Notes under the pieces: generated by a model
Database searches by the model: none
The model's input: the letters and a program-made list of their open reading frames with translations, nothing else
What the model was told of the DNA's origin: nothing
Program-made: the position numbers and the translations under genes
Shown: positions 2,785-60,825 of the stretch, in pieces
Layout: each line of letters starts with the position of its first letter
How positions within the stretch are numbered: the first letter of the stretch is position 1
Source: Trichocoleus sp.
GTDB taxonomy: Bacteria; Cyanobacteriota; Cyanobacteriia; Elainellales; Elainellaceae
Direction of reading: 5' to 3'
Assembly (NCBI GenBank): GCA_036702865.1
Contig: DATNQD010000039.1
Span: 1 to 64,000 of the forward strand
DNA length: 64,000 nucleotides

Positions 2785-2812
2785 CCCGGTAAGGATTTAG
2801 AAGTTGAGGCTT

Positions 2813-16337: not shown

Positions 16338-16464
16338 AGTTGTCCCAGCTTGGGTTCCTTAAAGACTTCCCAGAGCGTGGATTGACACCACTTAAAGAGC
16401 TGTTTACTGTGAAGACATGGGGCTGGTCATTCTAGTCCTGTCTCCTAAATTGGAGTAAAGGTGT

Positions 16465-37388: not shown

Positions 37389-37435
37389 TTTCTTAATTCC
37401 TTAATTCTGATTGCTTCAGCTAGAGTTGCTAGTGG

Positions 37436-38068: not shown

Positions 38069-38112
38069 GATTGTTTAGAGATAAATTGACAGAGGGCGCT
38101 CGCCAGGAGCAA

Positions 38113-38784: not shown

Positions 38785-38811
38785 TGTGGGAATGCCATTA
38801 ATTCTGTGGCA

Positions 38812-38820
38812 GAGTTCCCA
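38812..38820 (-). promoter_or_regulatory. GGGAACTCT motif before scaffold gene
   Basis: TGGGAACTCTGCCACAG on the minus strand, 28 nt before the scaffold ATG and directly before the stop codon region of the upstream gene. Confidence 0.55.
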
Positions 38821-39657
38821 CTATTCGCCAAACGTCAGGACATCAACGTAATAAGGATTGCCGTCACTATCAACTCCAGCTAAAGCTTGAGATTGCCTGA
38901 GAAAGCCTGTGTCTTGTATCTCCTTCTTTTCCCAGTCTTCGCACTCATCTCCATCTGGTCCATAGGGATACATTGCACAGACTAGAAGATTGGTGCCCTG
39001 CTCTCCATTGTGCGATCGTCCATAAAAGTGTTTGCATCCCTGGCAAGCTTTAGGACTGGAGGGTGGAACCATGTGACTTCTATGGAGGCTGAACGTCGAG
39101 CTGTGCCTGGCAATTCGCTGATGCTCAACTTCAGAAACTCGTAGAATGTATCGGCAGTAATTTTCGCCACGCTCAACCATGCCGCTTGTTACAGGCACTC
39201 GTAGCCTTACTATCCACTCGCAAGGGCAGTCGTAGCCTGCTTGCATGTGAGACTCTAAAACCTCACCTAGTACAGGGATTCCATCAACAAACAGTCGATC
39301 GCCAACAATCTCCACTGATCTGTAAAACAGCAACTCAACGACTGCTGCGATTCTATCTTCAGCAAAAGTCTCTAAGGATGTGACCGCCACCTGAATTTGA
39401 TGGCTGCCTGACTCCAGATAGAATTCATGGTTTCCAAAGTCGATCGTCCAGGTCTGTTCTAGGGGAAGCTCTACTAGCGATCGATTGGAATGCATGGCAA
39501 TCCTGCCTGATAACCGATAATCGAACAAGCTTAACTCTAATTCTTCAATTGACACTCCAGCCTTGCTGAAAACTTGCAAACCGTGGGCAATCGCTTCACG
39601 TGCCTCCCAATTCTTCACAAATTTTCCACCTGCAATTCTGCCGTAGGTTTGCGCCAT
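38821..39657 (-). CDS. phage-module hypothetical with C-terminal Cys cluster
   Basis: 278 residues. The first part is a mixed alpha/beta domain (IDFGNHEFYLESGSHQIQVA). The C-terminal part has CQGCKHFYG then LLVCAMYPYGPDGDECEDWE, a likely metal-binding module common in uncharacterised cyanobacterial proteins. It lies between portal and scaffold, where a protease or minor head protein is expected; neither signature is visible. Confidence 0.55.
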   Translation of the reverse strand: MAQTYGRIAGGKFVKNWEAREAIAHGLQVFSKAGVSIEELELSLFDYRLSGRIAMHSNRSLVELPLEQTWTIDFGNHEFYLESGSHQIQVAVTSLETFAEDRIAAVVELLFYRSVEIVGDRLFVDGIPVLGEVLESHMQAGYDCPCEWIVRLRVPVTSGMVERGENYCRYILRVSEVEHQRIARHSSTFSLHRSHMVPPSSPKACQGCKHFYGRSHNGEQGTNLLVCAMYPYGPDGDECEDWEKKEIQDTGFLRQSQALAGVDSDGNPYYVDVLTFGE

Positions 39658-39670
39658 AGCCCAGCCAAAC

Positions 39671-39871
39671 TCATGCTGTCACTTTAATCCAGAAATCCAC
39701 CTTTGCGTCAGGGTTTGACCCTGCCAACTGAAACACGATCGCCAGCAACTCACTGGTTGTCATCTCTGCATCATCTTCCCGCTGAATCACCACTGAGCAG
39801 CCAGGAATCGGAAAGTTACGCTGCTGCGGGGTCTGTTGTTCGGGTTGCTGATTTGTTGTTTCCGGTTCCAT
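39671..39871 (-). CDS. small head-module protein
   Basis: 66 residues: Gln/Pro-rich N terminus (TNQQPEQQTPQQRNFPIP) then EMTTSELLAIVFQLAGSNP. Its start overlaps the portal 3' end. Unknown function. Confidence 0.5.
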   Translation of the reverse strand: MEPETTNQQPEQQTPQQRNFPIPGCSVVIQREDDAEMTTSELLAIVFQLAGSNPDAKVDFWIKVTA

Positions 39872-41333
39872 TGTTTAACTCCTCATCTCCGTTATCACCA
39901 GGCGATCGCTTCGGTGGCGCTGACTCCTTCGATAGTTCTTCGTCAATCAGCGCCAGCTCTGCATCCACATCATCCACGCTGCCCAGTTTGGCGATCGCCG
40001 TTGCCTTGCTCATTAGCCCTGCCTGGAATTCCTTAACCACCGCATCTTTCTCTTCAGCAGACAGCTTGCCAGTGGTGATCCGCAGCTGCACCACAACCTC
40101 TAAATCGGTGTAACCCAAGATTCGCAGCACAATGTTCAGGATGTTGGCGATCGCGCTCTCCACCTTCCGCTTCCAGCCTTGCAGAAATAATTCAAAGCCC
40201 TGGCGCATCTGGATACGTGACTCACCCGACAGCCCAGCATCACCTGTGTCTAGCAGATGACCTTGTTTAAACGCGAGATAGAGCAAAATGCGATCGATCT
40301 CAATCGAGTCTTTAAACGTGCTGACTGCCACCGGCTCTGACTCGTGAACTGAAGGCGTGGTGTAGGTAGGGTTCATCGGATCACCCGTTGGCACACCGTA
40401 AACATAGCGATCGATTCCGGGTCCTCGTTCTAGGGGTTCGGTACTGGGAACGAATCGTTGCCCACCTGGTGCGGTTGGATCATCCACCCATTCGCCAGGT
40501 GCTTGAGCATTCAAAAACACGCTCTCACGAAAGCCCGATAACTCATTGTTTCTGAGCTTCATCGTCAGCGCATGGTTGATGCTGTTCTGCAATTTTTTGA
40601 TGGATGGCGTGAGCAAGCTGGGTCCCTGAATCTGCTGGATTGTCCATCTGCCATCTGCGTCGATTTCCAGGGGCTCACCCTCTTGATCTTCACCATCAGT
40701 TACGGTGACAACGACCTGCCCTTGCTCGTTGATCTGTTGCGTCTCTTTCTTGTTGGTGCCGTAGGTGTAGGCGATCGACTCAATAAAACCGTCATCATCG
40801 CGATCGACCTTGACTGAACCAACTTTGGGCGAGTGTAGGTGGATGTGGTGAATGGGGTCAGCATCATTCTCATATTTGCGCGGCTGCCATAAACGCAGAT
40901 TGCCTTCGCCCGTCACGCCTAGAGACAGAACACATTCACTCCAGGGGTCAGCTTGACGAAAATTTGTGGTTGCAGGGTCAGCGGCGATCGATTGCTGGTT
41001 CACCCAATCAAGCCAGCGTTGCAGCTCAACCTCTGCTTCTGCTGCCTTGACTCGCTTGCCTTTGGAGTCTTTAAGCGACCAGGTGAAGGGCTGGGAAATG
41101 AGTCCATCTTTCCAGTTATCAACACACTCAGAGATGATGTTGGCTGACTGAAAGACACGCTCAAGTTGCGCCAATTTTTCGGCAGCATTTGGGACAGTGG
41201 GAGGAATTGTGGGCCCTACCCAGCTCGACCAATGGTCACCCAGGTAATAATTGAGATTCTCTTGAGCCTGTTTCTGAAAGTTGGGTTGCATGTGGGAATG
41301 GGCGATCGCTCTATCCGTCAGAATTCCTACCAA
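39816..41333 (-). CDS. phage portal protein
   Basis: 505 residues from TTG 41333, which overlaps the terminase stop (TTGGTAG); ATG 41291 (MQPNFQKQAQENLNYYLGDH) is a good alternative. Typical portal features are ENLNYYLGDHWSSWVGP, the long central beta domain, and SFRESVFLN-type wing residues. A late helix KDSIEIDRILLYLAFKQGHL is followed by SGESRIQMRQGFELFLQGWK, a gp6/SPP1-like pattern. It forms the dodecameric DNA gate. Polar disordered C terminus. Confidence 0.82.
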   Translation of the reverse strand: MVGILTDRAIAHSHMQPNFQKQAQENLNYYLGDHWSSWVGPTIPPTVPNAAEKLAQLERVFQSANIISECVDNWKDGLISQPFTWSLKDSKGKRVKAAEAEVELQRWLDWVNQQSIAADPATTNFRQADPWSECVLSLGVTGEGNLRLWQPRKYENDADPIHHIHLHSPKVGSVKVDRDDDGFIESIAYTYGTNKKETQQINEQGQVVVTVTDGEDQEGEPLEIDADGRWTIQQIQGPSLLTPSIKKLQNSINHALTMKLRNNELSGFRESVFLNAQAPGEWVDDPTAPGGQRFVPSTEPLERGPGIDRYVYGVPTGDPMNPTYTTPSVHESEPVAVSTFKDSIEIDRILLYLAFKQGHLLDTGDAGLSGESRIQMRQGFELFLQGWKRKVESAIANILNIVLRILGYTDLEVVVQLRITTGKLSAEEKDAVVKEFQAGLMSKATAIAKLGSVDDVDAELALIDEELSKESAPPKRSPGDNGDEELNNGTGNNKSATRTTDPAAA

Positions 41334-42700
41334 TTGCGTTGAGATACAGGCATAGGACGACGACGGTTAGGTGCTGGCTGAATCAATGGACCAAGGGCAT
41401 ATCTAACTGCATCCCAACAGTGATTATGGGCATCCACAACGATCGACGAAATATCGCCACTTAAACGATCGACCTTGTAGGAATACAATCGCGCTTCTTC
41501 TGCGGTGCGCTTGCAACGTGGGTGAATCACAATCTTCTGATAACTTTGCAAATGGGCAATGCCATCTTCGACAGAGCCAGCCCACTTTTTCACGCCTACC
41601 AGTTGTGGAATAGGGGGACAGCCTTTGTCCTGATTGCTTGCTGGACGGCCTCTGCGAACATGACTGATTGATTCAGGACGTGAATTATCTGCTCGCACTG
41701 GATAGCGATCGATGTCAGGAACGTCGGCAATCCACAGCGCAGCAGTATCATCTAGCTCAAGGTGATGAGCATAGCTTTCATGCTCAACATAGAGACGCCG
41801 TTGGTAAATCCACACCCGCACAGCCGTTGTAGGGTCGCTGCCAAATCCCCAGTCAGCTCCATGATACGGACCGTCCCAATCTCCGCCAGGCTCGAACTCA
41901 TCCACAACCCATTTGCCATTGAGAATTTGAGCGTCTGATTTCTCCCACAGTCCGCCCTCCCAAATGTGTTCGTGCGCGTCTGGGTCAGTCGCTAAGAGCG
42001 ATCGCCGTTCTTCATCCAAAACCTTTGTAAAATGTGGGTTGCGATTCCAATTAACCTTTTCAACGTAGGCGGTTTTCCGTTTCTTTTCGACCAGCTCAAC
42101 CCAAACTTTGTCAGTCTTGTTCAATGGGTTAAATGTCACCCAGACTTCACTGCCCTCTTCCCGAATTGTTGGGATAAGCACATCCCATGATTCAGCCGAA
42201 ATCGTTTGCCCTTCTTCAATCCAGAGGTGGGTGATACCTGCCATTGATTTGATTGATTGGATATTGCGGCGGACGCCCTTAAAAATAAATGCGCTGCCGT
42301 TAGCACCCAAAATAGTTGCATCTTGGACTTGGTAAAACTTCTCCAAGTTGAGAGCTGAAATCCGTTCCTTTAAAAGAGCGTGAACTGATTCCTTAATCGA
42401 TACCTGGAATTCGCGAGCGCAAAGCACTCGAATTCTGCGAATCAGTCCAGTAATGAGCAGGGCATCAGCAGCGGCATACGACTTTCCAGAGCCACGGCCA
42501 CCCCACAGACATTTGTAGCGAACTGGAAGCAGTAACGGTTGTGCCCAGTCGGTCAGCCCTAGCGAGAGTGTTGCTGCGAGTTCACGACGATCGTTTGCCT
42601 CTCCCAGAAACATTGCAGCACTGGCGATCGCCTCATCAACTAATGTTTCGCTATACGAAAAATCAGGATGCTCATCCCAAACGAATTCCAAGCCATCCAT
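41327..42700 (-). CDS. terminase large subunit (PBSX family)
   Basis: 457 residues. The ATPase domain has Walker A GGRGSGKS (67-74), Walker B THLWIEEG (about 157-164) and a coupling motif VWVTFNPLN. The RNase-H-like nuclease begins at YHGADWGFGSDPT (Asp 283, Asp 289) and ends with DAHNHCWDAVRYAL. It pumps and cuts phage DNA at the portal. The start overlaps the small-subunit gene by 29 bases. Confidence 0.93.
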   Translation of the reverse strand: MDGLEFVWDEHPDFSYSETLVDEAIASAAMFLGEANDRRELAATLSLGLTDWAQPLLLPVRYKCLWGGRGSGKSYAAADALLITGLIRRIRVLCAREFQVSIKESVHALLKERISALNLEKFYQVQDATILGANGSAFIFKGVRRNIQSIKSMAGITHLWIEEGQTISAESWDVLIPTIREEGSEVWVTFNPLNKTDKVWVELVEKKRKTAYVEKVNWNRNPHFTKVLDEERRSLLATDPDAHEHIWEGGLWEKSDAQILNGKWVVDEFEPGGDWDGPYHGADWGFGSDPTTAVRVWIYQRRLYVEHESYAHHLELDDTAALWIADVPDIDRYPVRADNSRPESISHVRRGRPASNQDKGCPPIPQLVGVKKWAGSVEDGIAHLQSYQKIVIHPRCKRTAEEARLYSYKVDRLSGDISSIVVDAHNHCWDAVRYALGPLIQPAPNRRRPMPVSQRNW

Positions 42701-43683: not shown

Positions 43684-43977
43684 TTAGGCAGCGATCGAGT
43701 CGTTTCCTGAAACCAGTTCCTTGAACAGCTTCCCAGCGCTGAACGCAGGCACTTTTGTCTCAGGAATCGTCATTGCTTCACCTGTCTTTGGATTACGACC
43801 TTCCCGCTCTTTGCGCTCGCGTGGCTCGAAGGAGCCGAAGCCTACCAGCGTCACCTTATCGCCACTGGCGACAGCTTCCATGATGGAGTCGATCGCGGCA
43901 GTCAGAACAGCATCAGCCTGCTTCTTCGTGACATCTGCCTTCTCTGCAATTTTGTCTACCAGTTCGCCTTTGTTCAT
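43684..43977 (-). CDS. hup: HU family DNA-binding protein (copy 2, element-borne)
   Basis: 97 residues, 91 identical to the HU at 2.8 kb; differences include V10I, D12E, N15D, G38S and two near the C terminus. All HU signatures are intact (VTLVGFGSFEPRER, NPKTGEAMTIPETK). Synonymous changes are spread over the gene, so the copies are not a very recent duplication. It may compact the element's DNA or help integration, as HU/IHF do for many phages. Confidence 0.92.
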   Translation of the reverse strand: MNKGELVDKIAEKADVTKKQADAVLTAAIDSIMEAVASGDKVTLVGFGSFEPRERKEREGRNPKTGEAMTIPETKVPAFSAGKLFKELVSGNDSIAA

Positions 43978-44005
43978 AAGCCTCAACTTCTAAATCCTTA
44001 TCGGG

Positions 44006-45323: not shown

Positions 45324-46184
45324 TCACAGAGCTAAGAATCCGCCAGAACTTTCATTAGGGTGGACATGTAAATACTTACTAGTCGTTGCCACGCTGCTAT
45401 GTCGGAGCGTCTGCTGCACCAATGCGATCGATGCACCCCGATCAAGCGCATGAGAGGCGTGGCAGTGCCTTAGCCAGTGACAGCTTGCTTCCAGTCCAGC
45501 CCGATGAGCAGCCCGTTTCACGATGCGCCATGCTTGCGAGCGGTGAAGCTGCTGCCTGGTGGTGGAAGGAAACACAAACGAATCTGGAATGCGATCGCCC
45601 TCTAATGTCTGCAACTCCTGCCAGACGATCGAAGGCAGCAACACAACTCCAGTCTTGCCACCTTTGCCGAATACCGTGATTTGCCCAGTGCCGTTTCGAG
45701 GTTGTAGATCTCGCCACCGCAACTCACACAGTTCCGAGATTCGCAACGCTCCAGCATAGAGCAGCCGTAACATGACGCGATGTTGGGGATGGGGCTCTAG
45801 AGTGAGCATTTGCCGCACCTGGTCTTCAGTCAGAATGCGCTCAGCCAATGTATTCTTGACCTTTGGAGCTTTAATTGGTGCAGCAACGTTCCATTGCACA
45901 TAGCCGATTCTGTGAGCAAAGCTGAACAAAGACTTAATTGTATTCGTAGCGCGTGCTTGACTTGCTGGAGCCAGGTGAGCGATCGTCTCCAGGTAGGCTT
46001 GCAAATCTCCCAGTTTCACCTGGCTCAATGGCATATTGACAGACTTGATGAACCTTCCAGCTTCGTAGCGGTAAGCATCTTGGGTTGTTCGTGCCTTTCC
46101 ATGCAGCCATAGTGCAATCAGTTGATCATCACTCGCAGCTTGAGCAGGTTGCATGCTTGCATGCTTGTGTACAAGGTTAGACAT
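45324..46184 (-). CDS. int: tyrosine recombinase/integrase
   Basis: 286 residues. An N-terminal SAM-like core-binding domain spans about 20-105. The catalytic domain carries all expected residues: Arg 148 (GALRISELCELRW), Lys 174 (VFGKGGKTG), His 236 and Arg 239 (CHWLRHCHASHAL), His 262 (LRHSSVATTSKY) and Tyr 271. Length and absence of an arm-binding domain make it XerC/D-like. It converges on the HEPN-like gene, one base apart. It probably integrates and excises the element. Confidence 0.9.
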   Translation of the reverse strand: MSNLVHKHASMQPAQAASDDQLIALWLHGKARTTQDAYRYEAGRFIKSVNMPLSQVKLGDLQAYLETIAHLAPASQARATNTIKSLFSFAHRIGYVQWNVAAPIKAPKVKNTLAERILTEDQVRQMLTLEPHPQHRVMLRLLYAGALRISELCELRWRDLQPRNGTGQITVFGKGGKTGVVLLPSIVWQELQTLEGDRIPDSFVFPSTTRQQLHRSQAWRIVKRAAHRAGLEASCHWLRHCHASHALDRGASIALVQQTLRHSSVATTSKYLHVHPNESSGGFLAL

Positions 46185-46571: not shown

Positions 46572-46607
46572 GGCTTCTATCCAAAGTGGTAGAAGCCGCA
46601 GTTTTTG
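46572..46607 (+). terminator. hairpin terminator before sigma gene
   Basis: GGCTTCTA (46572-46579) pairs with TAGAAGCC (46590-46597), followed by GCAGTTTTT. It ends 14 bp before the sigma-factor start and may end the zinc-ribbon transcript or act as an attenuator. Confidence 0.55.
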
Positions 46608-46619
46608 TTTAAATGTTTT

Positions 46620-47354
46620 ATGAACCGCTCAGAACAGATTTGGGCGTATTACCACAAGCTAAATGAGGGATGCGCTCCAAAGGACCTCATTCACTTGCGA
46701 AACCAAATCGCACAAACCAACGATCGCCTGGCAATCAAAGCTGCTCGCAAAATGCAGCAGAGATGCAACTTGCCCTTAGAAGATTGCATTCAGCTCTCTC
46801 GCATGGGGATGCTGAAAGCGATTCCAAAATTTGATCCGACCAAAGGCGTCGCCTTCAGCAGCTTCATTGTTCCCTATTGTGAAGGAGAAGTGAAGCATTT
46901 TTTGAGAGACCATAAGCACCTGGTTAAGTCGCCGCGTCGCTGGCAAGAAAAGTCAGATGAAGCCAGATGCATTCAACTCAAAATGGCAAATCATGGCAAT
47001 CGGCTCATTACCTTAGATGAAATCGCTACAAAAGGGATGGGGCTGCCGAAAGACCATTGGGAGACGATTGCTCATGCGACGCAGCATAAGCCTTGCGCCA
47101 CGTTGGATGATGCTTTGCAGGTTGCAGCTCCTGAATCAATGCCCTTGGAAGAGCGAGAAGAGCGAGAGGCAATTCAGGAAGCTGTTCTAGGGGCATTAGG
47201 TAAACTGCCGAAGCTGACGCAGCAATGCCTGATTGAAAAGTTCTGGGGTGATCTGCCAGATATCGTGATTGCCAAGCGCCATCACATGACCCCTGTACAA
47301 CTGCAAACCCTTTTTACTAACGCCCTACAGGAATTGAGAACTGTACCATGCTGA
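46620..47354 (+). CDS. sigma-70 family factor, SigF/SigB-like (group 3)
   Basis: 244 residues from ATG 46620. Region 2 is DCIQLSRMGMLKAIPKFDPT followed by GVAFSSFIVPYCEGEVKHFL, RDH and SPRRWQE, the core- and -10-binding signature of SigB/F/G factors. Region 4 (LPKLTQQCLIEKFWGDLPDI and following) ends the protein. It is intact in length and overlaps the next gene by seven bases. A sigma factor in a phage element could switch transcription to its late genes; see the motif finding. Confidence 0.75.
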   Translation: MNRSEQIWAYYHKLNEGCAPKDLIHLRNQIAQTNDRLAIKAARKMQQRCNLPLEDCIQLSRMGMLKAIPKFDPTKGVAFSSFIVPYCEGEVKHFLRDHKHLVKSPRRWQEKSDEARCIQLKMANHGNRLITLDEIATKGMGLPKDHWETIAHATQHKPCATLDDALQVAAPESMPLEEREEREAIQEAVLGALGKLPKLTQQCLIEKFWGDLPDIVIAKRHHMTPVQLQTLFTNALQELRTVPC

Positions 47355-51056: not shown

Positions 51057-51404
51057 TTACGCTGCGATCGACGTTTCCAGTTGTGCCAAACTCAATCTAA
51101 ATTCCAGCTTGGCGACAGAGAACTGACTGCGGAGCAGCTCTGCTTCAATCTGCAGTTTAACGAGCGCATCTTGAGCATGTTGGAGTTCGAGCAATGTGCC
51201 CTGATACTCTTCATCTGCCTGCAATTCAGCCTTCCTAGATTTGCGCTGTGACTCGTTTTTAAGCTCAGCGTCAAAGGCGACAGCGCACTCAATCTCTCGA
51301 TCGAAGGTCTGCAAAATGTCTTTCAGTTTGCGAACCTTTTGCTCCTGGTTGAGAACAGTCAGTTGCTTGTCTGCAATGTGTTGTGGAAATTCGGAAAGTT
51401 GCAT
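51057..51404 (-). CDS. coiled-coil protein, unknown
   Basis: About 115 residues from ATG 51404. Almost entirely helical and charged (KQLTVLNQEQKVRKLKDILQ, KNESQRKSRKAELQADEEYQ). Such small coiled-coil proteins are frequent near phage early genes, but I cannot assign it. Third of three minus-strand genes (52033, 51627, 51404). Confidence 0.55.
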   Translation of the reverse strand: MQLSEFPQHIADKQLTVLNQEQKVRKLKDILQTFDREIECAVAFDAELKNESQRKSRKAELQADEEYQGTLLELQHAQDALVKLQIEAELLRSQFSVAKLEFRLSLAQLETSIAA

Positions 51405-51444
51405 GATGTTTACCAATAAAAGAAGGACTGGATTGAAGCGAGCA

Positions 51445-52659: not shown

Positions 52660-53337
52660 TTAGGATAGGGCAGGCGGTTGAACTGCCTCGACATCAAGAT
52701 TTTTGCCCACCTGATATAACACGCCACTGTCATCCTGGATCAGCCGATATTGATAAGTGAATTTCCGCCAGTTCGATCGGGTTGGAACGTCCACCCCTAG
52801 CCAGCTTGTCTCGATTATCGATCTAGGGTTATTCGGCTCCAGCTGTTGAGTTGATCGGTTCAAGTCTTCCAGGTCTGGCAGATGCCAATATTCTCGCCGC
52901 TGACGGTTGATGGCTTGCTCAACCGTCGCACCTGAAATTAAGACCTGACAGGACTCTGACATTGCGATCTGCTGCTGCGATTGTAGATCCGAACTGAGCT
53001 TGACCAGCACCCACTTCTCATCGGGATGCTCTAGAAAATTTTCCAATTCGCGGACGATTGGTAGAGACAGCCGCATCTGTGCGACTCGAATACCGGGCAG
53101 TAGAACAGAGTTAAACATCATGCCCCCTGGATTTGCCATTGATGCCAATACTCTAAACGGCTTGCGACAGCCAGGATATCTGACCAGCGTGTGAGGCTTG
53201 TCAAATTCCATCGCCCATCGTGCCAGCATTGCTGTTCTATTGCGGATTGTCTGTCGTGCCGCTTCGTAGCTCGACAAAAACAAAACTACTGCATCTGGCG
53301 TGATTTCCAACCGATCGCTATCCAATTGGAGCTGCAT
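52660..53337 (-). CDS. hypothetical protein
   Basis: About 225 residues from ATG 53337 (MQLQLDSDRLEITPDAVVLF); it overlaps the upstream gene by 20 bases. Mixed alpha/beta with a long helical middle (LPIVRELENFLEHPDEKWVL). The C-terminal beta part (TYQYRLIQDDSGVLYQVGKN) may be a small domain. No family recognised. Confidence 0.55.
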   Translation of the reverse strand: MQLQLDSDRLEITPDAVVLFLSSYEAARQTIRNRTAMLARWAMEFDKPHTLVRYPGCRKPFRVLASMANPGGMMFNSVLLPGIRVAQMRLSLPIVRELENFLEHPDEKWVLVKLSSDLQSQQQIAMSESCQVLISGATVEQAINRQRREYWHLPDLEDLNRSTQQLEPNNPRSIIETSWLGVDVPTRSNWRKFTYQYRLIQDDSGVLYQVGKNLDVEAVQPPALS

Positions 53338-53689
53338 CGCTACTCCTCTGCCCAACTCTGTTTCGCAAGGCTATCAAGACTTCTAATTCCATATCAAGCG
53401 TATGCGCCAGGTCGCAAAGCTCACCGTCGTCAATCCATTCTCCAGATGCCAGACGAGTAAGCAGCGTTTTGGCATCTGGCAGATAGGCGATCGGGCGCTT
53501 CCTGAGAAATGCCACATGATCCGCTAAGGGGCGGGAGCCAAGCCGAAACCCGAACTGAATCACGTCCCCGTCCGTTGTGCCCATCAAATCAGAGATGTCT
53601 TTGATGAATTGCCATTCCGCATCGGTGAACGTGAGCCTACTCTGACGCTGCACTCGTTTCTTGTCTTTGTCCGCCTTCTCTCCTGCCAT
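53318..53689 (-). CDS. small DNA-binding-like hypothetical protein
   Basis: 123 residues. A basic N terminus (KADKDKKRVQRQSRLTFTDA) precedes EWQFIKDISDLMGTTDGDVI, which resembles a ribbon-helix-helix or plasmid CopG-like start. The rest is helical. First gene of a pair with 53337. Confidence 0.5.
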   Translation of the reverse strand: MAGEKADKDKKRVQRQSRLTFTDAEWQFIKDISDLMGTTDGDVIQFGFRLGSRPLADHVAFLRKRPIAYLPDAKTLLTRLASGEWIDDGELCDLAHTLDMELEVLIALRNRVGQRSSDAAPIG

Positions 53690-54005: not shown

Positions 54006-54530
54006 ATGAACATTCAACTTGCCCAAATCAGAGAAGAGCTAACTTCTTTCATGCCAGGGAAAACGCTGTGCAACGAAACTTGGCAGCGATACAAGCGAAT
54101 TGTGGGCGTTGCCGATCGCAAGCGCACCTGTAGCCGAGATCAATGGGTTCTGCTTTGTGCCTGTGTCGCGTTTCGTCGGATGCGTCGAAGCATCACACCG
54201 ATCGCCCTCAAGATTTTTGTCCGCAACAATCAAAATGATCCAATGGCGTTTTTGCCGGGATACATTCCCCAATCCGCGCTGAATGATGTTCCAGATGTGG
54301 CAGTTGGGTTGGAGCTGGCGGAGGCGATCGAGCGGAAGACAAGCTACTGCCCTTCTGAATGGACATTGCGCCGATGGACAGCGCGGCTTGGATACGGCAA
54401 ATGGAGCAGACACAAGGAGTTTTCCGAAGCCCAGATCAAGGCTTACATCAATCTCTACTTTCAAATCCGTTATCAGGAGATTGAGAGAGGGCATCAGAAC
54501 AACTTTGCAAACCGGAGAAATGTAGCATGA
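54006..54530 (+). CDS. FtsK operon gene 1: DNA-binding-like hypothetical
   Basis: About 174 residues from ATG 54006 (MNIQLAQIREELTSFMPGKT). Basic and Cys/Arg-rich, with KRIVGVADRKRTCSRDQWVL, LCACVAFRRMRRSITPIALK and a second basic helical part (SEWTLRRWTARLGYGKWSRH). The pattern suggests two helix-turn-helix-like units. The start of the eleven-gene operon; the stop overlaps the next ATG (ATGA). Confidence 0.6.
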   Translation: MNIQLAQIREELTSFMPGKTLCNETWQRYKRIVGVADRKRTCSRDQWVLLCACVAFRRMRRSITPIALKIFVRNNQNDPMAFLPGYIPQSALNDVPDVAVGLELAEAIERKTSYCPSEWTLRRWTARLGYGKWSRHKEFSEAQIKAYINLYFQIRYQEIERGHQNNFANRRNVA

Positions 54531-55054
54531 CCCCATCTGAAATCGTTGATTCACTTTCGGCACAAGGAGTCGAAGTTAGCGAATCACAGCTTAAAGCTGA
54601 ACTTTCCAAACGGGGCATTGAGCTTAACGAAATCAATGCAGAGACGATCGGTATTCTTGCAGATCACTTCCGCTTGCTGAATGGCGAGTCTTCTGCTCTT
54701 GTAACTCCTGAACTGGAGCAACCCAAAGCAAAGGGTAAAAAAGGAGGTAGCCTAACCCGCAGTCAACGCCAAGGACTTGCTTCGCAGTCTACTTCCCCTA
54801 CTCCTGTTAATCGGGTAGAGCCGATCGAAATTCAGCCACGACTTGACAAACTTAAAAATGGTTCTCGGCAGGTAGGCAGCGATTTAGACGATCTGGTTTC
54901 TACGTTTGAAGCAGGAACCCAGGCTAAGGGCTTGCAGGTTAACAGCAGATTGCAAACTGCCATTAACAATATGTATGCCAGTGCCCTCAGTGTTGAATTT
55001 CCTGACCTAAGTGGGCACAAACAGCAGCTTGCTAACTTATTCGGGCTGGAATAA
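54527..55054 (+). CDS. FtsK operon gene 2: hypothetical with KGL-AIN motif
   Basis: 175 residues. N-terminal helical domain (EIVDSLSAQGVEVSESQLKA, ELSKRGIELNEINAETIGIL), a basic spacer (KAKGKKGGSLTRSQRQG), and a C-terminal coiled part with FEAGTQAKGLQVNSRLQTAI. The last motif recurs in gene 6 of the operon. Probably a cytosolic DNA- or protein-binding partner. Confidence 0.58.
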   Translation: MTPSEIVDSLSAQGVEVSESQLKAELSKRGIELNEINAETIGILADHFRLLNGESSALVTPELEQPKAKGKKGGSLTRSQRQGLASQSTSPTPVNRVEPIEIQPRLDKLKNGSRQVGSDLDDLVSTFEAGTQAKGLQVNSRLQTAINNMYASALSVEFPDLSGHKQQLANLFGLE

Positions 55055-55449
55055 TGAGCAAAATCATTCAACGTCGAACATGGGAGTTACACCCCACCAG
55101 CAAAGACAAAGACGGCAACGCTCGACCAACAATAACGACTGAAGTTGATCTACCTCCTGAACTGCTGGCACTGCTGGAGAAGCCACGAAACCAGCAAATC
55201 AACAATACCTACAACAACAACACTTACAACAATCAAACTCAACCGGAAAGTCAGAACTATCAACCATCTCAATTAAAGCAAAGTGTTTCTCCCTTCCCGT
55301 TTCTGACATTCCTGTTTGGTGCAATCGCTTTTTTTGTTGCCTTTGCATATTTCTCAACCTCTGCTCAGTTGGCATCAGCACAACAACAACTGAATGATGC
55401 AAAGGTGACGATCGGCGCATACGAGAGAGCTATGGGGATGTTGAAATGA
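55054..55449 (+). CDS. FtsK operon gene 3: single-pass membrane protein
   Basis: 131 residues. The polar, Asn/Gln-rich N terminus (NNTYNNNTYNNQTQPESQNY) is followed by a hydrophobic segment (FPFLTFLFGAIAFFVAFAYF) and a helix rich in Gln/Ala. Start overlaps the previous stop (TAATGA). Confidence 0.6.
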   Translation: MSKIIQRRTWELHPTSKDKDGNARPTITTEVDLPPELLALLEKPRNQQINNTYNNNTYNNQTQPESQNYQPSQLKQSVSPFPFLTFLFGAIAFFVAFAYFSTSAQLASAQQQLNDAKVTIGAYERAMGMLK

Positions 55450-55925
55450 GTGCGACAACCGTGATTCAGCAGAACTTAAATGAACGGCAGCAACTCTACT
55501 CTCAGGTTTTGGCAGAGGCGGGCATTGAGCAGCAGTTAGCCGATCGGATGGCGGCAGAATTCGGAGGCAGCGCAAACCCACCACTGCAAGAGGCAGAACT
55601 GCAAGTTCTGACCGATGAGCAAAAAGTAGTTCTAGGAAAAATTCTGGAAGACTACCAAAAACGGCAGGTACAGTCTGAGCCTCAACCTGAATCGAAACCC
55701 GTTGCCTCTTCTGGCTTTCGTGCTTTAGATGAAAAGACACGGAACTGGTCAGAGCAGCCTGTTACTATTCGGCGCGATGGGTTCATCCTAGTCAATCTCG
55801 GATGCTTCATTATCTGCCTGCTGATTGGCTGTCTGGTCGGGCAGGTTGGCGCAGGTAAGCAGCTAGACAAAATGAATGCCAATCTTCGGCAGTGTCAAAT
55901 TCAACTACAGGAATCACTCAAATGA
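55446..55925 (+). CDS. FtsK operon gene 4: membrane-anchored protein
   Basis: 159 residues. Helical N-terminal part (NERQQLYSQVLAEAGIEQQL) with an acidic linker, then one membrane helix (FILVNLGCFIICLLIGCLVG) near the C terminus and a short coiled tail. ATGA overlaps at both ends. Confidence 0.6.
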   Translation: MSATTVIQQNLNERQQLYSQVLAEAGIEQQLADRMAAEFGGSANPPLQEAELQVLTDEQKVVLGKILEDYQKRQVQSEPQPESKPVASSGFRALDEKTRNWSEQPVTIRRDGFILVNLGCFIICLLIGCLVGQVGAGKQLDKMNANLRQCQIQLQESLK

Positions 55926-56344
55926 AAAAGTTAATTGCAGGAGCGATCGGGATTGTTTTCCTTATGCCAACGGCAGCACACGCGACTAATTTATGGGAAG
56001 TTCTCAACGGGTTTGGTCAGCCTGTGAACTACGGGACGGTTCAGCCATCACAATCTGTCTACAACTACAGACCACAACAATCCGCTCCAACATATACAGA
56101 GCGATACTATCGACCTCAGACTTATGCAAGCAATTATGTTGACTGTAATTCGATGGATCAGCTAGGTCGATGGGAAAGGCGTAGATCGTGTCCTCAAAAT
56201 TATCCTCTTAGTCCCAGGCTCCGAAGGTTGAGCTATCCCGACAACGGCAGCACATTTAACTTCGATAGATTTCAGCCAGGAGACAGTCTAGGAAACACTC
56301 TGCTAACTGGCTTATTCCTTGCCCGATGGGGCAGACCTTGGTAA
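55922..56344 (+). CDS. FtsK operon gene 5: secreted Tyr/Arg-rich protein
   Basis: About 140 residues from ATG 55922. Signal peptide MKKLIAGAIGIVFLMPTAAH-A, then a Tyr/Pro/Gln-rich middle (SVYNYRPQQSAPTYTERYYR) and a basic C-terminal part. It is exported, probably to the periplasm or surface, which is unexpected in a phage replication operon. Confidence 0.62.
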   Translation: MKKLIAGAIGIVFLMPTAAHATNLWEVLNGFGQPVNYGTVQPSQSVYNYRPQQSAPTYTERYYRPQTYASNYVDCNSMDQLGRWERRRSCPQNYPLSPRLRRLSYPDNGSTFNFDRFQPGDSLGNTLLTGLFLARWGRPW

Positions 56345-56347
56345 ACC

Positions 56348-57043
56348 ATGACACTTGAACTTCTCAAACAACAACTGAAAGAAACAGAGGAACTTGTAGC
56401 CCTAATTGAATCTGGCTCTGAGCAAAAAGGGCTTGAGATACAGGAGCGAGTCCAGGGAGCGATTAACAAACTGCACTCTCAGACTCAATCTGTGTTTGAG
56501 CAGTTCAAAGCTCAGTTTGTGGGAGTCGATGAACAACGGCAGCAACTCTATCAGGAAATCCAGAAAGCAAACTCGCTTCATCCTGAAACAGCAAAACTGA
56601 TGCAGGTTCGGGCAACGCTCAACAACCCGATCGACCTGAACGCAAAGCTCTGGAAACTGCAAACAGAGCATCCTCTTGACCAGTGGGAGGAGCGCATTAA
56701 ATTAATGCGAGGTGTGATGCTGGCATATCTCAAGCAGACTGGCGTTGAGCTATTGGTTCCCTGCTTGTGGCATCAGACAGCCAAACAAATCACTGATTTG
56801 CAATGGTCTGATCAGCTAATGACCCTGTTTCACAACAACTGGAAAACTTGGCTCAAGTTGCATTGGGCGATTCAGGATAAGCAAGTTTTCAATGAAATGA
56901 GTTACTGGATGTGGGCAGAGAGGCAGCCCACAAAATTGAGTTTTCAGCGTTGGCAAAAACTCAATCAAAAACTCCCTCCAGTGATTCGGACCATGCCTCA
57001 CCTTGATCCGGAGTATACGAGTAGGTATGACCTCTTACAGTAA
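56348..57043 (+). CDS. FtsK operon gene 6: coiled-coil protein with KGL-AIN motif
   Basis: 231 residues. Helical N terminus with LIESGSEQKGLEIQERVQGA, the same motif as in gene 2. Then LNAKLWKLQTEHPLDQWEER and Trp-rich helices (NNWKTWLKLHWAIQDKQVFN, MSYWMWAERQPTKLSFQRWQ). Cytosolic. The shared motif suggests common ancestry or a common partner. Confidence 0.58.
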   Translation: MTLELLKQQLKETEELVALIESGSEQKGLEIQERVQGAINKLHSQTQSVFEQFKAQFVGVDEQRQQLYQEIQKANSLHPETAKLMQVRATLNNPIDLNAKLWKLQTEHPLDQWEERIKLMRGVMLAYLKQTGVELLVPCLWHQTAKQITDLQWSDQLMTLFHNNWKTWLKLHWAIQDKQVFNEMSYWMWAERQPTKLSFQRWQKLNQKLPPVIRTMPHLDPEYTSRYDLLQ

Positions 57044-57500
57044 GAGCTACTTCAGAGAAGGACTAACAGCAATTGTTTTTGTGAGTGTGATCGTCGGGTT
57101 AGGTTATGGCATCTGGCTCAACGCACAACCCCGCCCGCTTTACCTCAACTCTTTCGGTGGACTGCTCCGATCGCTACAACCTCCATCTCCACTAGAAGAG
57201 AAACCAGCTATGCCGTTCCAGCTTCCGCAACTGTTCCAGTCAGAACAAGCGGAAGCACAACAGCAGAACCCGCCTGAACAACAGGTGGATGTAAAACAGG
57301 AACCAGCCGCGATCGAGCAGCAGCAAATAACAGTTGTAGTTGCTGACTGCGAGAGCAGCGCGGAGTACAGGCTAAACCGTTTTGAACAGTGGTACTATTA
57401 CCGCGACTTCTATAACGTGCTTGAACCCTGTCCAGGTTGGGAAACTGAATTCTCAGATGTAACAGGAGCAATTAATAATGGCGATACCGGGACTAGGTAA
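57027..57500 (+). CDS. FtsK operon gene 7: membrane protein with periplasmic part
   Basis: About 157 residues from ATG 57027, overlapping the previous gene by 17 bases. N-terminal membrane helix (LTAIVFVSVIVGLGYGIWLN), then Pro/Gln/Glu-rich linker (QSEQAEAQQQNPPEQQVDVK) and a C-terminal part with two Cys (ADCESSAEY...LEPCPGWETEF) that could form a disulfide outside the membrane. Confidence 0.6.
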   Translation: MTSYSKSYFREGLTAIVFVSVIVGLGYGIWLNAQPRPLYLNSFGGLLRSLQPPSPLEEKPAMPFQLPQLFQSEQAEAQQQNPPEQQVDVKQEPAAIEQQQITVVVADCESSAEYRLNRFEQWYYYRDFYNVLEPCPGWETEFSDVTGAINNGDTGTR

Positions 57501-57981
57501 CGACAATCCCGAACTCAACAAAGGAGGATGGGAAGGCAGGCAAAATGACTCTCGCCCTTCATCTAGCAATGTTGGGTACAAAGGACAATTCACCAAGGGA
57601 CTTGATGGGCTGTACAAGGTTGCAGGTATTTCACCAACAAACCTTGATTACATCTCTCCTGAAAACTTCGGGAAGGCTCAAGCCTACATGGATAACTTGG
57701 AGCTTAAAGGGAAGGACACCATCGAATACTTCAAGAAAATGGTTCCTGAAGCTTCCGCTACGGATCTCAAAGTGCAACAAGCAGCGCATGACGCAGAGAT
57801 CAGGTTGGGCGATCATCGAGTGCTGGCAAGAGAGGCATTCATGAACAAGCGACGGGCAATGGAAGCCAATCGAGGTAAGGAAGCTGCTCAAGACCATGCC
57901 TATCAGCACGATCGGCAGGTTGTTGACGGCTATGTACAGGGACTAGAGCAGGCGATCGATAACGCTGTTGCGCTTGTCTAG
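57478..57981 (+). CDS. FtsK operon gene 8: soluble helical protein
   Basis: 167 residues. Gly/Asn-rich start (GLGNDNPELNKGGWEGRQ) then mainly helical, with FGKAQAYMDNLELKGKDTIE, HDAEIRLGDHRVLAREAFMN and a charged C terminus. Overlaps the previous gene by 23 bases. Unknown. Confidence 0.55.
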   Translation: MAIPGLGNDNPELNKGGWEGRQNDSRPSSSNVGYKGQFTKGLDGLYKVAGISPTNLDYISPENFGKAQAYMDNLELKGKDTIEYFKKMVPEASATDLKVQQAAHDAEIRLGDHRVLAREAFMNKRRAMEANRGKEAAQDHAYQHDRQVVDGYVQGLEQAIDNAVALV

Positions 57982-58014
57982 CTACGTTTGAAACAAATTC
58001 AGGAGAACAGAATA

Positions 58015-58263
58015 ATGTCTCAGCCGGATTATCTCAGTTCAATGTTCAGCTATGGCGAGGAGTTGTTTAAGCCGATTCAAGAACAGAAAAAAAAACACAC
58101 AGAGCAGATAGTAAGGAGGGTGAGGGCGATCGACCAAGACGTAAGAACAGCAGCAGGAAACGCAAGCTCAAGCCCAAGCCTGGAAAAGGCTTATGAGCGT
58201 TCCGAAATGATTGAAAACCTTGCTCAAGATATGAAAAACCGTCCTGACGAGTACCCCATCTAA
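58015..58263 (+). CDS. FtsK operon gene 9: small helical protein
   Basis: 82 residues from ATG 58015 (MSQPDYLSSMFSYGEELFKP). A coiled middle (IQEQKKKHTEQIVRRVRAID) and KAYERSEMIENLAQDMK. 33 bp after gene 8. Unknown. Confidence 0.5.
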   Translation: MSQPDYLSSMFSYGEELFKPIQEQKKKHTEQIVRRVRAIDQDVRTAAGNASSSPSLEKAYERSEMIENLAQDMKNRPDEYPI

Positions 58264-58312
58264 TCTTTTCTTGCAGTGAGCTATGGGGCATTAAGCCCCA
58301 TTTTTTGTAGAT

Positions 58313-58555
58313 ATGAATCCTCAGATCCTCAAGCAAATCTGTCTAGGATTGACAGGCACTCTATTAGGTGTGACAGTCCATCACGCTACAAATTGGCTGT
58401 TCATTAAATACCCTGCCTCATTTATTTTGGGGCATCTGATCAGCATTGCGATCGTACTTTTCGGGCTGTATCTGCTGCGAGATGCAATCCAAGATTTTTT
58501 AGGCATCCAGATCAACTTAATTCCCCGCAGACAACAGGGAGGTAAAACACCATGA
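58313..58555 (+). CDS. FtsK operon gene 10: small two-helix membrane protein
   Basis: 80 residues with two membrane segments (LGLTGTLLGVTVHHATNWLF and ILGHLISIAIVLFGLYLLRD) and a basic end (LIPRRQQGGK). Its stop overlaps the FtsK start. Probably a membrane partner of the motor. Confidence 0.6.
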   Translation: MNPQILKQICLGLTGTLLGVTVHHATNWLFIKYPASFILGHLISIAIVLFGLYLLRDAIQDFLGIQINLIPRRQQGGKTP

Positions 58556-60825
58556 CCTTAGCCCAAAAGGTTTGGGAACGTGACCAATTACGGAAAGAGC
58601 AGCGCACCTTAACAGTCTGGACATTTGCCCTGCTTGGTGGAGCAACCTGCTCTGCTCTGATGTGGGGATTTCCTTTCAATGCACAAACCAAAACTCTGTA
58701 TGGAATGCTGGCAGTTGGTTCCGCTGGCACTGCACTCGCTCTGGCTCATTCATCCTGCCGGATTGCCGAAGAACTCAAACCCGTGGAGGAAGACGTTGCC
58801 GCATACCGCAAGGTGAGCCAAACCACGAATCGCGGTGCAATCGGGCTACGAGCAAAACAAATGCTCAGGGCAATAGCAGCACCCTCACAACCTCAAGTGA
58901 TCCAGCAATTACCCGAATGGTTCGATAAAACTTGTGATGCCGTCGAGCGTGTTTTCAGGCGGGCACAGCTACCCGTTGAGGTTATAGGGATTGAGCAGAC
59001 TGAAACTGAGATTCACTATGTTTTGGAACGTCGATCGAATGAGCCAAGTTTGGCAGTTTTTCTAGTGAAAGGACAAACCCTATCAACAGAATTAATGCTG
59101 GAAGCCGGATTGTGCAAGGCTCAACTAAAAATTCTGCCTTTCAAACTGGTTTTGATTGCGCCAATACAAGAGCCTCAGCTAGTTGAGCAGTCATTCAATC
59201 TGTTGCATCAGTTTTTAATGCAGAATCAACAGAAAACAGTCCGTCAATCTACACAAACTATTGCTGTCCCTCACCGTGAGATAAAAGAGGAGATATCTGC
59301 AGGTTCAGTTGAGCCAACCCATCCAGACACAACAACCATTGGACAAACGATCGCCTCAACTCTGCAAGCCTACGGCATTAATACACAGGTGATTGATGCA
59401 ATTGAAGGCATGGCAATCGATCGCTATTGGGTGCAGCTGCCACCAGGGAAACGAGTTGCAGAAATTGAAAAGCACGCTAATGAATTATGGCTAAACTTGC
59501 AGCTTTCACAATCTCCCATGATCAGCATTGACCGTGGAGCCGTGGCGATCGATGTTCCTCGCAAAGATCGGAAGTTCTGCAAGTTTACTGACTATGTTCA
59601 GTTGGAAGGCAACCGATCGAGCGCGGAAGAACTGGTTGCAGTGATTGGCTTAGATTTGCTCGGTAACGTGGTAGAACTCAACATCGCGTCACCTGACTCC
59701 TGCCAGGTCAGAGGCGGCGGCTGCACAGGTAGCGGAAAATCTGAAGGCATTGCGTCACTGATCCTGAGCTTGGCGCATCGCTACCCACCCGAGGAACTGC
59801 AAATCTACATTGCAGACGGCAAAATGCACACCTACACCGAACTGGAGCGGCTGCCTCATCTAGCGATGCAGATTGCTCGCACTCCAGACGAATTGATAAC
59901 AATGGCAACGATCGTTGCTAATCAAATGGATGAGCGATATGGCAAAACATTCGCTGAGTATGGTTGTGCCGACATCAAGACCTATCGCAAGAAATCAGGC
60001 TTCATTCTGCCTCGCATTTTGTTCATCATCGATGAGTATGGCGACTTCAGAAATCAGTTCATCTCTGCTGCCAGAACAACAGAATTCTCTAGGTTAGAGG
60101 CAACCTGCACTCGCATTGGACAGAAAGGGAGATCTAGCGGCATCCATGAAGGCATTTTTACTCAGAAGCCATCGGTCGAGGTTTTGGATTCAGAACTTCG
60201 ATCTCAGCTTAAAGCAGCACTCGCTTTCAAGATGGAATTTCCCCAGGAATCTGCCTGCATCCTTGGCGATTCCAATATGAAGGCAGACAAGCTATTAGGG
60301 AAAGGTGACGGCATTCTTGCTTATGGCTCTGAGGAAATCCGCTTCCAAGGGTTGTTCTGCGGCATTGAAGACGGACTGCTGCCGGGACTAATCGATCGCT
60401 GCCTGTCCGTCTATCAAGGCTATCCCACGGTTGAAGTGCAAGCCATTCCTGTCCCTGCTCCGCAGGCCTCGGAGAATGACCCCTACAGCTACCGTTACCC
60501 GCCGAACTGGGGTTACATCAGCCAACTCACTAAGCAGATGACCGATGGTTACTGCTGCTTTCCAGGCTGCGCTAATCAAGCAACAGAGACGCATCATGCG
60601 ATGTACGAAGAAGACGGCAAGCCGATCGTCTCCAATCCCGTTCCTGGCAGGCATGTCTATCCCCTTTGCGACATCCATCACGGCAAAGAACATCCACGGG
60701 GGGCGCACAACCCGAAGAACTGGACAAAGGGGACGTGCAAAGAGCCGCTGGAAATTGACTCTCGCAACACTCCTGACTATCACAAGCTGTTAATTGCGGG
60801 CTGGCAGGAAAAGTTGTCACAGTAA
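58552..60825 (+). CDS. FtsK/SpoIIIE-type DNA translocase fused to HNH-nuclease-like domain
   Basis: 757 residues. Two N-terminal membrane helices lie at about 20-65. An alpha-domain-like part precedes the motor (WVQLPPGKRVAEIEKHANEL). The motor has Walker A GGGCTGSGKS (388-397) and Walker B ILFIIDEYGD (Asp 494, Glu 495), with a late RIGQKGRSSGIHEGIFTQ. The C-terminal 667-725 carries YCCFPGCANQATETHHAMYE and PLCDIHHGKEHPRGAHNP, an HNH-type metal-binding pattern absent from chromosomal FtsK. No gamma (KOPS-reading) domain is visible. Likely pumps double-stranded DNA at a membrane pore and may nick it. Related motors serve partition and dsDNA conjugation. Confidence 0.78.
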   Translation: MTLAQKVWERDQLRKEQRTLTVWTFALLGGATCSALMWGFPFNAQTKTLYGMLAVGSAGTALALAHSSCRIAEELKPVEEDVAAYRKVSQTTNRGAIGLRAKQMLRAIAAPSQPQVIQQLPEWFDKTCDAVERVFRRAQLPVEVIGIEQTETEIHYVLERRSNEPSLAVFLVKGQTLSTELMLEAGLCKAQLKILPFKLVLIAPIQEPQLVEQSFNLLHQFLMQNQQKTVRQSTQTIAVPHREIKEEISAGSVEPTHPDTTTIGQTIASTLQAYGINTQVIDAIEGMAIDRYWVQLPPGKRVAEIEKHANELWLNLQLSQSPMISIDRGAVAIDVPRKDRKFCKFTDYVQLEGNRSSAEELVAVIGLDLLGNVVELNIASPDSCQVRGGGCTGSGKSEGIASLILSLAHRYPPEELQIYIADGKMHTYTELERLPHLAMQIARTPDELITMATIVANQMDERYGKTFAEYGCADIKTYRKKSGFILPRILFIIDEYGDFRNQFISAARTTEFSRLEATCTRIGQKGRSSGIHEGIFTQKPSVEVLDSELRSQLKAALAFKMEFPQESACILGDSNMKADKLLGKGDGILAYGSEEIRFQGLFCGIEDGLLPGLIDRCLSVYQGYPTVEVQAIPVPAPQASENDPYSYRYPPNWGYISQLTKQMTDGYCCFPGCANQATETHHAMYEEDGKPIVSNPVPGRHVYPLCDIHHGKEHPRGAHNPKNWTKGTCKEPLEIDSRNTPDYHKLLIAGWQEKLSQ

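Follow-up and report, generated by a model that had tools for sequence, protein, structure and literature searches.

An FtsK-type motor with an HNH-type C-terminus in a cyanobacterial prophage operon and its possible role in superinfection exclusion

What might an FtsK-type DNA motor ending in an HNH-type domain do as the last product of a tightly packed operon rich in predicted membrane proteins, and what kind of element carries such an operon? The question is raised by positions 54006–60825 of a 64,000-nucleotide stretch of Trichocoleus sp. DNA (GCA_036702865.1, contig DATNQD010000039.1). This stretch, hereafter the window, comprises bases 1–64000 of a contig of 116,454 bases (C39) in a genome of 5.93 Mb and 90 contigs. 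A reading made from the sequence alone had seen in the eleven genes, g1 to g11, a possible system for transfer or partition of double-stranded DNA (dsDNA), distinct from a phage module. What the sequence itself supports is a prophage setting, an FtsK alpha-beta motor with intact Walker motifs and no matched gamma domain, an HNH-type module, membrane genes and the recurrence of motor and HNH in company, either fused or encoded by separate neighbours. Tentatively, we take the operon to be a module that recurs in temperate tailed phages of cyanobacteria and couples a membrane-anchored dsDNA translocase to an HNH-type nuclease, most likely for superinfection exclusion.

The prophage and its motor protein

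The operon sits within a 63.0-kb integrated prophage on C39, between two 25-nt repeat copies (10122–10146 and 73120–73144) that are identical at 25 of 25 positions (blastn-short, E = 1.3e-8). The intact tRNA-Arg(CCT) gene lies past the window end, at 73121–73196 of C39. Adjoining it is a tyrosine-recombinase-like gene (71878–73005), whose product has no Pfam match of its own and is 40% identical to the integrase of a second element on contig C80 of the same genome, itself a sub-cut-off Phage_integrase match. The features that define the prophage in the window are the following.

10122–10146, minus strand: left attachment (att) site, a 25-nt copy of the tRNA-Arg(CCT) 3′ end
36243–42700, minus strand: head and packaging block of the prophage, by PHROGs matches
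36243–37388, minus strand: capsid (phrog_29, E = 2e-16)
39816–41333, minus strand: portal (phrog_64, E = 2.3e-7)
41327–42700, minus strand: terminase large subunit, TerL (phrog_3717, E = 1.5e-56)
45324–46184, minus strand: second integrase of the prophage (phrog_1, E = 5.3e-45); a relative occupies the same place in a prophage of genome G059 (E = 4.7e-9)

With an integrase, att repeats at a tRNA, TerL, portal and capsid all present, the whole element is a tailed temperate prophage. A stand-alone plasmid or transfer island was rejected on the strength of the att repeats and structural genes. The sequence-only reading was thus right to place the operon on a mobile element. It erred in looking beyond phages: the prophage has head, tail and terminase genes, and similar operons occur in the cyanophage CrV-01T, in IMG/VR contigs and in other prophages. 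The terminase found no second match elsewhere in its own genome. No empty att site was found among 20 loci with flanks of up to 1.5 kb, in none of which the left-flank genes were detected; the tRNA-Arg stands beside the right-flank gene in seven of the 20, the prophage's own locus counted. Beyond the window end, the element also encodes an RNase T-type exonuclease (C39 70598–71338) and a protein of 1138 amino acids (aa) (C39 64870–68286), which has only a sub-cut-off AAA_16 match in Pfam and which we take, by eye, to be a replication protein.

The motor and its C-terminal module are laid out as follows.

58552–60825, plus strand: g11, the motor, 757 aa, with a hairpin at residues 19–66, FtsK alpha at 258–336, Walker A at 390, Walker B at 489 and an HNH-type part at about 639–757
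60466–60822, plus strand: the HNH-type module of g11, with zinc-type cysteines and an HH pair at residues 681–682 within the motif PLCxxHH

By its alpha and motor domains and its intact Walker A and B motifs, g11 is predicted to belong to the FtsK/SpoIIIE translocases. It matches FtsK_SpoIIIE (PF01580, E = 1.1e-23) and FtsK alpha (PF17854, E = 1.6e-7) in Pfam, both above the cut-offs, as well as phage FtsK families in PHROGs, and its profile finds FtsK among solved structures with E = 4.7e-54. Its closest solved relatives are cellular FtsK motors, both by sequence profile and by fold search; YukB, EccC and then the conjugation protein TcpA follow by sequence, and TcpA is the second kind of protein found by fold. 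The predicted structure has a mean predicted local distance difference test (pLDDT) score of 42.9, and nothing beyond portions of its FtsK alpha and motor domains is usable. No Pfam match to FtsK gamma was found in g11, as the sequence-only reading had maintained. Given the missing gamma match, the HNH-type C-terminus and the location in a mobile element, we rejected a chromosomal division FtsK. The separation from a division operon is borne out by the host genome, in which both PF01580 matches lie in the C39 and C80 elements and no other FtsK was found among the 40 candidates scored of 80 first-look candidates.

The HNH-like nature of the C-terminus, also proposed earlier, held up at the level of profiles. 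Pfam gives no match for the module of g11, and PHROGs a weak HNH match at most (E = 0.098). A profile of ten relatives compared with solved chains finds 8ZP9 (E = 1.4e-5) and IscB (E = 3.5e-5) nearest, with McrA at E = 0.6. The chain 8ZP9 is listed as CasD, and we take it to be Cas5-HNH; 8ZP9 and IscB are RNA-guided effectors whose partners are unrelated to those of the window operon. All ten alignment rows keep C30, HH43–44, C68, H72 and H81, and at least nine keep the second cysteine (C35). The predicted structure of the module (pLDDT 38.7) is too low in confidence for a reading of its fold. Profile comparison thus supports an HNH-type domain, a putative nuclease, at the C-terminus of g11.

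With tblastn at E 1e-3, the HNH module had no match in 50,697 phage or 72,556 plasmid records, and g1 had none in the 50,697 phage records. Two HNH proteins used for close-relative scans against the viral collection found only their own source or nothing, and scans with g11 alone in the genome and viral collections were fruitless.

Recurrence of the motor and the HNH module

How far do the motor and the HNH module travel together? The element on C80 has a counterpart of the operon that includes a motor–HNH fusion. Its integrase gene (18702–19793) adjoins tRNA-Val (19908–19980), and where its g1, g2 and flanking genes align with those of the window, identity is 45–92%. The C80 motor, a shorter FtsK of 542 aa, bears the same HNH module (48% identity over 121 aa). 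A C80 gene at 1086–1640 is Rad52-like by eye and has no Pfam match. The 3′ end of tRNA-Val recurs as a 24-nt copy on contig C7 (1423–1446), where no intact tRNA was found; C7 is possibly the other end of the element on C80. The same contig (L051, L122) holds the DISARM genes DrmA, DrmB and DrmMI together with TPR genes.

A third fusion is found in G059, a genome from another cyanobacterial family, in a prophage syntenic with that of the window (TerL, E = 5.6e-196). There the order is tRNA-Ser, integrase, a large replication-like gene, zinc-ribbon-like genes, the operon, a second integrase, an HU-like gene and the terminase. The FtsK–HNH protein has 657 aa and is 34.5% identical to g11 over 565 aa. 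No second att copy was found within 100 kb of this prophage.

The three fusions (C39, C80, G059) served to build an HNH profile, with which 388 cyanobacterial genomes were searched at E 1e-8, 11 candidates being scored per genome listed. Ten genomes gave 12 matches in all; since one match is a tail duplicate of 32 positions, 11 loci remain. Of these, eight are part of a motor operon with membrane genes or adjoin one, adjacency being judged by eye: the three fusions, and five loci at which motor and HNH are separate genes (G104, G018, G091, G068 and contig C201 of G017). The others, G011 and the orthologous pair G201/G057, lie away from a motor operon. Outside the set that built the profile, five of eight loci accompany a motor operon, or five of seven if the orthologous pair is counted once. 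A scan of a separate collection added an Iningainema prophage, in which the HNH part follows the motor in frame after one TGA. On an IMG/VR contig of 105,884 bases a separate HNH gene stands right behind the motor, with a probable terminase nearby by eye. As for the TGA of Iningainema (L060 8756–10591), it may mark two genes, a pseudogene or a sequencing error.

The motors themselves differ. Matches to the FtsK_SpoIIIE family are strong for C39, G059 and G104, weaker and still above the cut-off for C80 and L065, and sub-threshold for Iningainema; the G068 motor has only sub-threshold matches to ResIII, HerA and AAA families. In profile comparisons, g11-type FtsK matched the motors of C80, L060, L128 and L129 with E = 8.6e-20 in an alignment that included the HNH part of C80, and those of L127 and L133 weakly (probability 22). 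Two stretches with a mean hydropathy of about 1.2 or more occur within the first 130 residues of eight of 12 motors, and a single clear one in the motors of Iningainema, G104 and contig C241 of G017. Some separate HNH proteins also end hydrophobically, namely those of G104 (1.68) and G011 (1.90), with G057 near the cut-off (1.54), G201 below it and G068 hydrophobic by eye.

FtsK proteins without these companions are more common. A profile of g11-type FtsK matched 79 of the 388 genomes at E 1e-40, and the surroundings of 20 matches were fetched. Most FtsK proteins among the matches listed have no hydrophobic helices, and many belong to a chromosomal cluster of three genes that includes a P-loop ATPase and is made up of a protein of about 280 aa, an AAA/KAP-type ATPase of about 670 aa and an FtsK of 680–900 aa without a hydrophobic helix. 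One example lies at L101 4843–10432, with similar ones in L098, L099, L105, L106, L107 and L109. In composition, and judged by reading alone, this cluster is similar to the Orc/CDC6-HerA/FtsK systems that the available text of PMC10853773 describes. It is distinct from the present operon.

Candidate functions of the operon

Which function would fit these features? In the reading that we favour, the N-terminal hairpin and the small membrane proteins would hold the motor ring beneath the cytoplasmic membrane, and the ring would draw in duplex DNA and pass it to the HNH domain for cutting. That DNA is pulled at the inner membrane face and cut is suggested by the Walker motifs, the hydrophobic hairpin (weak in g11, more distinct in several sister motors), the membrane partners and the nuclease-type domain. 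Less certainly, and as our best guess at the purpose, a lysogen might thereby intercept the incoming DNA of rival phages and plasmids. We favour interception for three reasons: the HNH module accompanies motors of differing kinds, some of its separate homologues look membrane-bound, and excluding rivals benefits a prophage.

Two precedents are relevant by analogy: capture by HerA/FtsK motors, which has been proposed (PMC10853773), and SNIPE, a membrane nuclease recently shown to cut DNA during injection (PMC13190303). The anti-invader systems of the former, DndH and the Orc/CDC6-HerA/FtsK operons, are described as joining an FtsK/HerA dsDNA pump to a nuclease, with differing motors beside a constant nuclease (PMC10853773). 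The window operon would share this logic, since it combines an FtsK/HerA-type motor with a nuclease-type domain, and among known kinds of system these come closest to it. In the available text, those systems are cellular, have nucleases of the restriction-endonuclease fold and are not described as membrane-anchored, whereas the present operon has an HNH module, predicted membrane anchors, many small membrane partners and a home in phage genomes. With SNIPE the proposed operon would share a membrane-placed nuclease acting against entering DNA; the main text on SNIPE mentions neither HNH nor FtsK (PMC13190303), whereas the window has a motor and a whole operon. PADLOC, run on six of the 11 operon proteins and four others, matched the motor part of g11 to SspH (E = 6.9e-31), mad8 (E = 6.1e-11) and weakly HerA, the C80 motor to mad8 and weakly Cas3b, and a 119-aa coil-like protein weakly to PDC-S44; the other seven had no match. 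A PADLOC-listed system was rejected, as the complete gene set of none was encountered.

Several observations weigh against this reading. The PADLOC matches cover the motor part only. The HNH family is rare, having been found in 10 of 388 genomes, and the fusion was seen at three loci in two genomes only. Pfam matches none of the motors of G018, G091 and G017 contig C201, which were called by P-loop motif and position, and the Walker A motif of G018 is altered. The two N-terminal membrane helices that the sequence-only reading gave to g11 are weak (19-residue means of 1.41 and 1.18); the CrV-01T motor has no clear N-terminal stretch at all (best mean 1.12). Likewise, the HNH call lacks a conserved central residue: in the ten-row alignment, the position at which we assume the Asn of H-N-H to fall is variable. 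The G068 operon includes M23 peptidase and lysozyme genes, which fit lysis or envelope crossing better. On a tree of 20 motors, the HNH label changes three times on the best tree, and a single change is found in 0% of 200 bootstrap trees; the starred branches force only one change, and the branches are long. Such a tree does not establish repeated motor swapping and is still compatible with one origin. Finally, CrV-01T and three close IMG/VR contigs have small proteins, membrane proteins and FtsK without HNH, as does a similar operon on contig C241 of G017. Judged from these sequences, HNH is frequent in such operons, not obligatory, and because the CrV-type and C241 operons are without it, the core job may not need cutting.

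These HNH-less operons, the absence of a host FtsK match and the M23 and lysozyme genes of G068 are also the reasons why handling of the phage's own DNA, transfer and lysis all retain some probability. The machine might serve the phage itself by anchoring its genome, once excised or freshly replicated, to the membrane, by helping DNA entry to completion or by segregating copies when the cell divides, with HNH trimming or resolving DNA; we regard this as doubtful. The persistence of motor and membrane genes without HNH in CrV-01T and its three IMG/VR relatives argues for it, as do the cellular FtsK that is the best structural match and the presence in the same elements of a Rad52-like gene (G059) and of the RNase T-type exonuclease at C39 70598–71338. 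With no further FtsK turning up among the host candidates scored, the phage might bring its own. Yet g11 has no gamma match and no known orienting site, a fused nuclease would be odd for segregation, and no ParA/ParB pair is seen by eye beside the operon, where no profile search was made. The motor ring, with an HNH cutter built in or attached and a set of phage membrane proteins to secure it, might instead form a phage-encoded gate for DNA in the inner membrane between filament cells, passing phage DNA or policing arrivals, an idea that we rate as rather improbable.

Transfer of the element between cells as dsDNA, for instance along the filament and in the manner of TraB in actinomycete integrative and conjugative elements (AICEs), seems to us unlikely indeed. 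AICEs are defined by an integrase, an FtsK/SpoIIIE protein (PF01580) and RepSA, RepAM or Prim-Pol (PMC3218068). The window element shares the FtsK motor and an integrase at a tRNA with these elements as the available text of PMC3218068 presents them; it differs in that its large protein has no Rep or Prim-Pol match and in that phage structural genes are present, so that it has its own means of moving. The C80 element looks more AICE-like, with an integrase at a tRNA, a large replication-type protein (985 aa, by eye), an FtsK motor and small membrane genes; no phage structural gene is seen by eye in the part of C80 that was read, where no phage-family scan was made. Small membrane genes adjoin TraB in AICEs, and TraB has a DNA-reading domain where g11 has HNH. 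TcpA of plasmid pCW3 (6O1X), which has an FtsK-like motor fold as g11 does and appears among its fold and sequence-profile matches, is the partner of a type IV secretion system and is not known to have an HNH domain. Operons of Trichormus plasmid C and of G259 that pair FtsK with an M23 peptidase also speak for transfer, whereas the second, lysozyme-like Trichormus protein has no Pfam support, g11 has no gamma match, the clustering of repeats upstream of the operon in C39 and C80 does not exceed that in random windows of their contigs, and the Gram-negative envelope would be an extra barrier. Least probable to us, and quite improbable, is a lytic-phase role, either host takeover by drawing in and cutting host DNA or support of lysis by the membrane genes. 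The FtsK-like families matched by g11 have the PHROGs category 'moron, auxiliary metabolic gene and host takeover', and M23 and phage-lysozyme genes lie in the same gene run in G068. However, neither Pfam nor PHROGs pointed to a lysis gene in the operon, and relatives manage without HNH.

If superinfection exclusion is the purpose, a phage-borne membrane motor–HNH module would join motor–nuclease defence with membrane nuclease cutting during injection, and would suggest a role for cyanophage FtsK genes annotated merely as cell division proteins, as in CrV-01T. No paper was recognised as describing this operon in a literature search of open-licence PMC text. The pairing of a motor with a nuclease is already known; as far as searched, a membrane-anchored, phage-borne motor–HNH operon is not. 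Its defined gene set is g1–g11 plus a divergent gene pair.

Operon genes, neighbours and related loci

Eleven plus-strand open reading frames (ORFs) fill 54006–60825, as the sequence-only reading had it. Plus-strand ORFs of at least 75 aa sum to 6840 nt over these 6820 nt, far above 50 base shuffles (mean 820, maximum 1890). That most genes overlap was also correct: six of the ten junctions do so by at least 4 nt (g1/g2, g3/g4, g4/g5, g6/g7, g7/g8, g10/g11) and g2/g3 by 1 nt. The gaps measure 3 nt at g5/g6, 6 nt (TTG start) or 33 nt (ATG) at g8/g9 and 49 nt at g9/g10. Because a terminator-like hairpin separates g9 and g10, a single 11-gene transcript is an assumption; the region has 11 terminator-like sites against 8.9 in shuffles.

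54006–54530, plus strand: g1, 174 aa, 52% identical to its C80 counterpart
54527–55054, plus strand: g2, 175 aa, 53% identical to C80 over 110 aa
55054–55449, plus strand: g3, 131 aa, one membrane helix at 83–101 by hydropathy
55446–55925, plus strand: g4, 159 aa, one membrane helix at 113–131 by hydropathy
55922–56344, plus strand: g5, about 140 aa, signal-peptide-like N-terminus
56348–57043, plus strand: g6, 231 aa, without a membrane helix
57027–57500, plus strand: g7, 157 aa, one N-terminal membrane helix at 13–31
57478–57981, plus strand: g8, 167 aa, without a membrane helix
57988–58263, plus strand: g9, at most 91 aa, without a membrane helix
58283–58301, plus strand: terminator-like hairpin in the g9/g10 gap, a consensus match only
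58313–58555, plus strand: g10, 80 aa, a small membrane protein directly before the motor

Hydropathy agrees with the earlier count of four membrane-anchored proteins (g3, g4, g7 and g10) and one secreted protein, the signal-like g5, which is probably exported. The motif ascribed to two of the proteins is also real: the C-terminus of g2 and the N-terminus of g6 are 31% identical over 61 aa (E = 3e-7 in a single comparison). The 'DNA-binding-like' first gene fared less well, as g1 has no profile match in Pfam or PHROGs and a DNA-binding role for it is a guess. Pfam was searched with ten of the 11 operon proteins and PHROGs with nine, g10 being in neither set. Among the ten, g11 alone passed the Pfam cut-off; the others had no or weak matches, such as HTH_NDX for g2 (0.022), and phrog_16943 matched g4 weakly (0.0075). 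A small membrane protein also precedes the motor by one or two genes in C80, G059, CrV-01T and L065, and proteins of the size of g8 are similarly placed in C80, CrV-01T and L065, a likeness of position only.

The operon is flanked by minus-strand genes that recur in part with it.

51057–51416, minus strand: 119-aa coil-like protein common to the three elements compared, 92% identical to C80 and 31% to G059
52660–53355, minus strand: 231-aa protein, downstream member of the divergent pair that lies upstream of the operon; its N-terminal 71 aa are 72% identical to C80
53318–53689, minus strand: 123-aa protein, first gene of the divergent pair, 45% identical to C80
60881–61837, minus strand: 318-aa protein with zinc-ribbon-like cysteines by eye, 77% identical to C80

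The C80 counterpart of the 231-aa protein has a match in the product of the correspondingly placed G059 gene (31% over 136 aa), and a similar divergent pair is seen by eye in L127. The 123-aa protein has no Pfam family and is a possible ribbon-helix-helix regulator. The 318-aa protein is 41–46% identical to two G059 genes over 92–127 aa.

Repeats upstream of the operon were set aside as evidence: TTGCACA looked clustered, yet many random windows of the same contig matched it. Of 1000 random windows in C39, 165 had counts as high for 6-mers and 249 for 7-mers (21 and 44 of 500 shuffles), and the C80 repeats were no more clustered than random windows of their contig. Before the G059 operon, six CGGAAC lie within 420 bp (L032 10484–10903), a possible operator or recognition site; random windows equalled CGGAAC in three and CGGAA in 29 of 1000 cases and shuffles in none of 500 each, this being one of nine comparisons.

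Among other loci, the CrV-01T operon resembles that of the window in placing FtsK behind a run of small and membrane genes, without HNH. The FtsK of Mycobacterium phage LittleE has 442 aa and neighbours annotated as Ku-like, recombination directionality factor, repressor and hypothetical. Trichormus plasmid C (L025 1884–10422) has a membrane-gene operon with FtsK and an annotated M23 peptidase, a possible plasmid relative; its second membrane protein is lysozyme-like by eye, with no Pfam match. A similar membrane operon with FtsK and, by eye, an M23 peptidase lies in G259 (L110 8706–12599).

Within the window, two near-identical genes, HU-like by eye, lie left of the prophage (2804–3106) and inside it beside the terminase (43684–43986); the G059 prophage likewise has an HU-like gene at its terminase. 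ARAGORN calls a tRNA-Ser (anticodon ACT) at 16463–16536 on the minus strand, in a gap between phage tail genes, which may be a phage tRNA or a false call. The prophage also carries a sigma factor gene (46605–47354; Sigma70_r2, E = 2.3e-12), and a similar gene is seen by eye in the element on contig C201 of G017.

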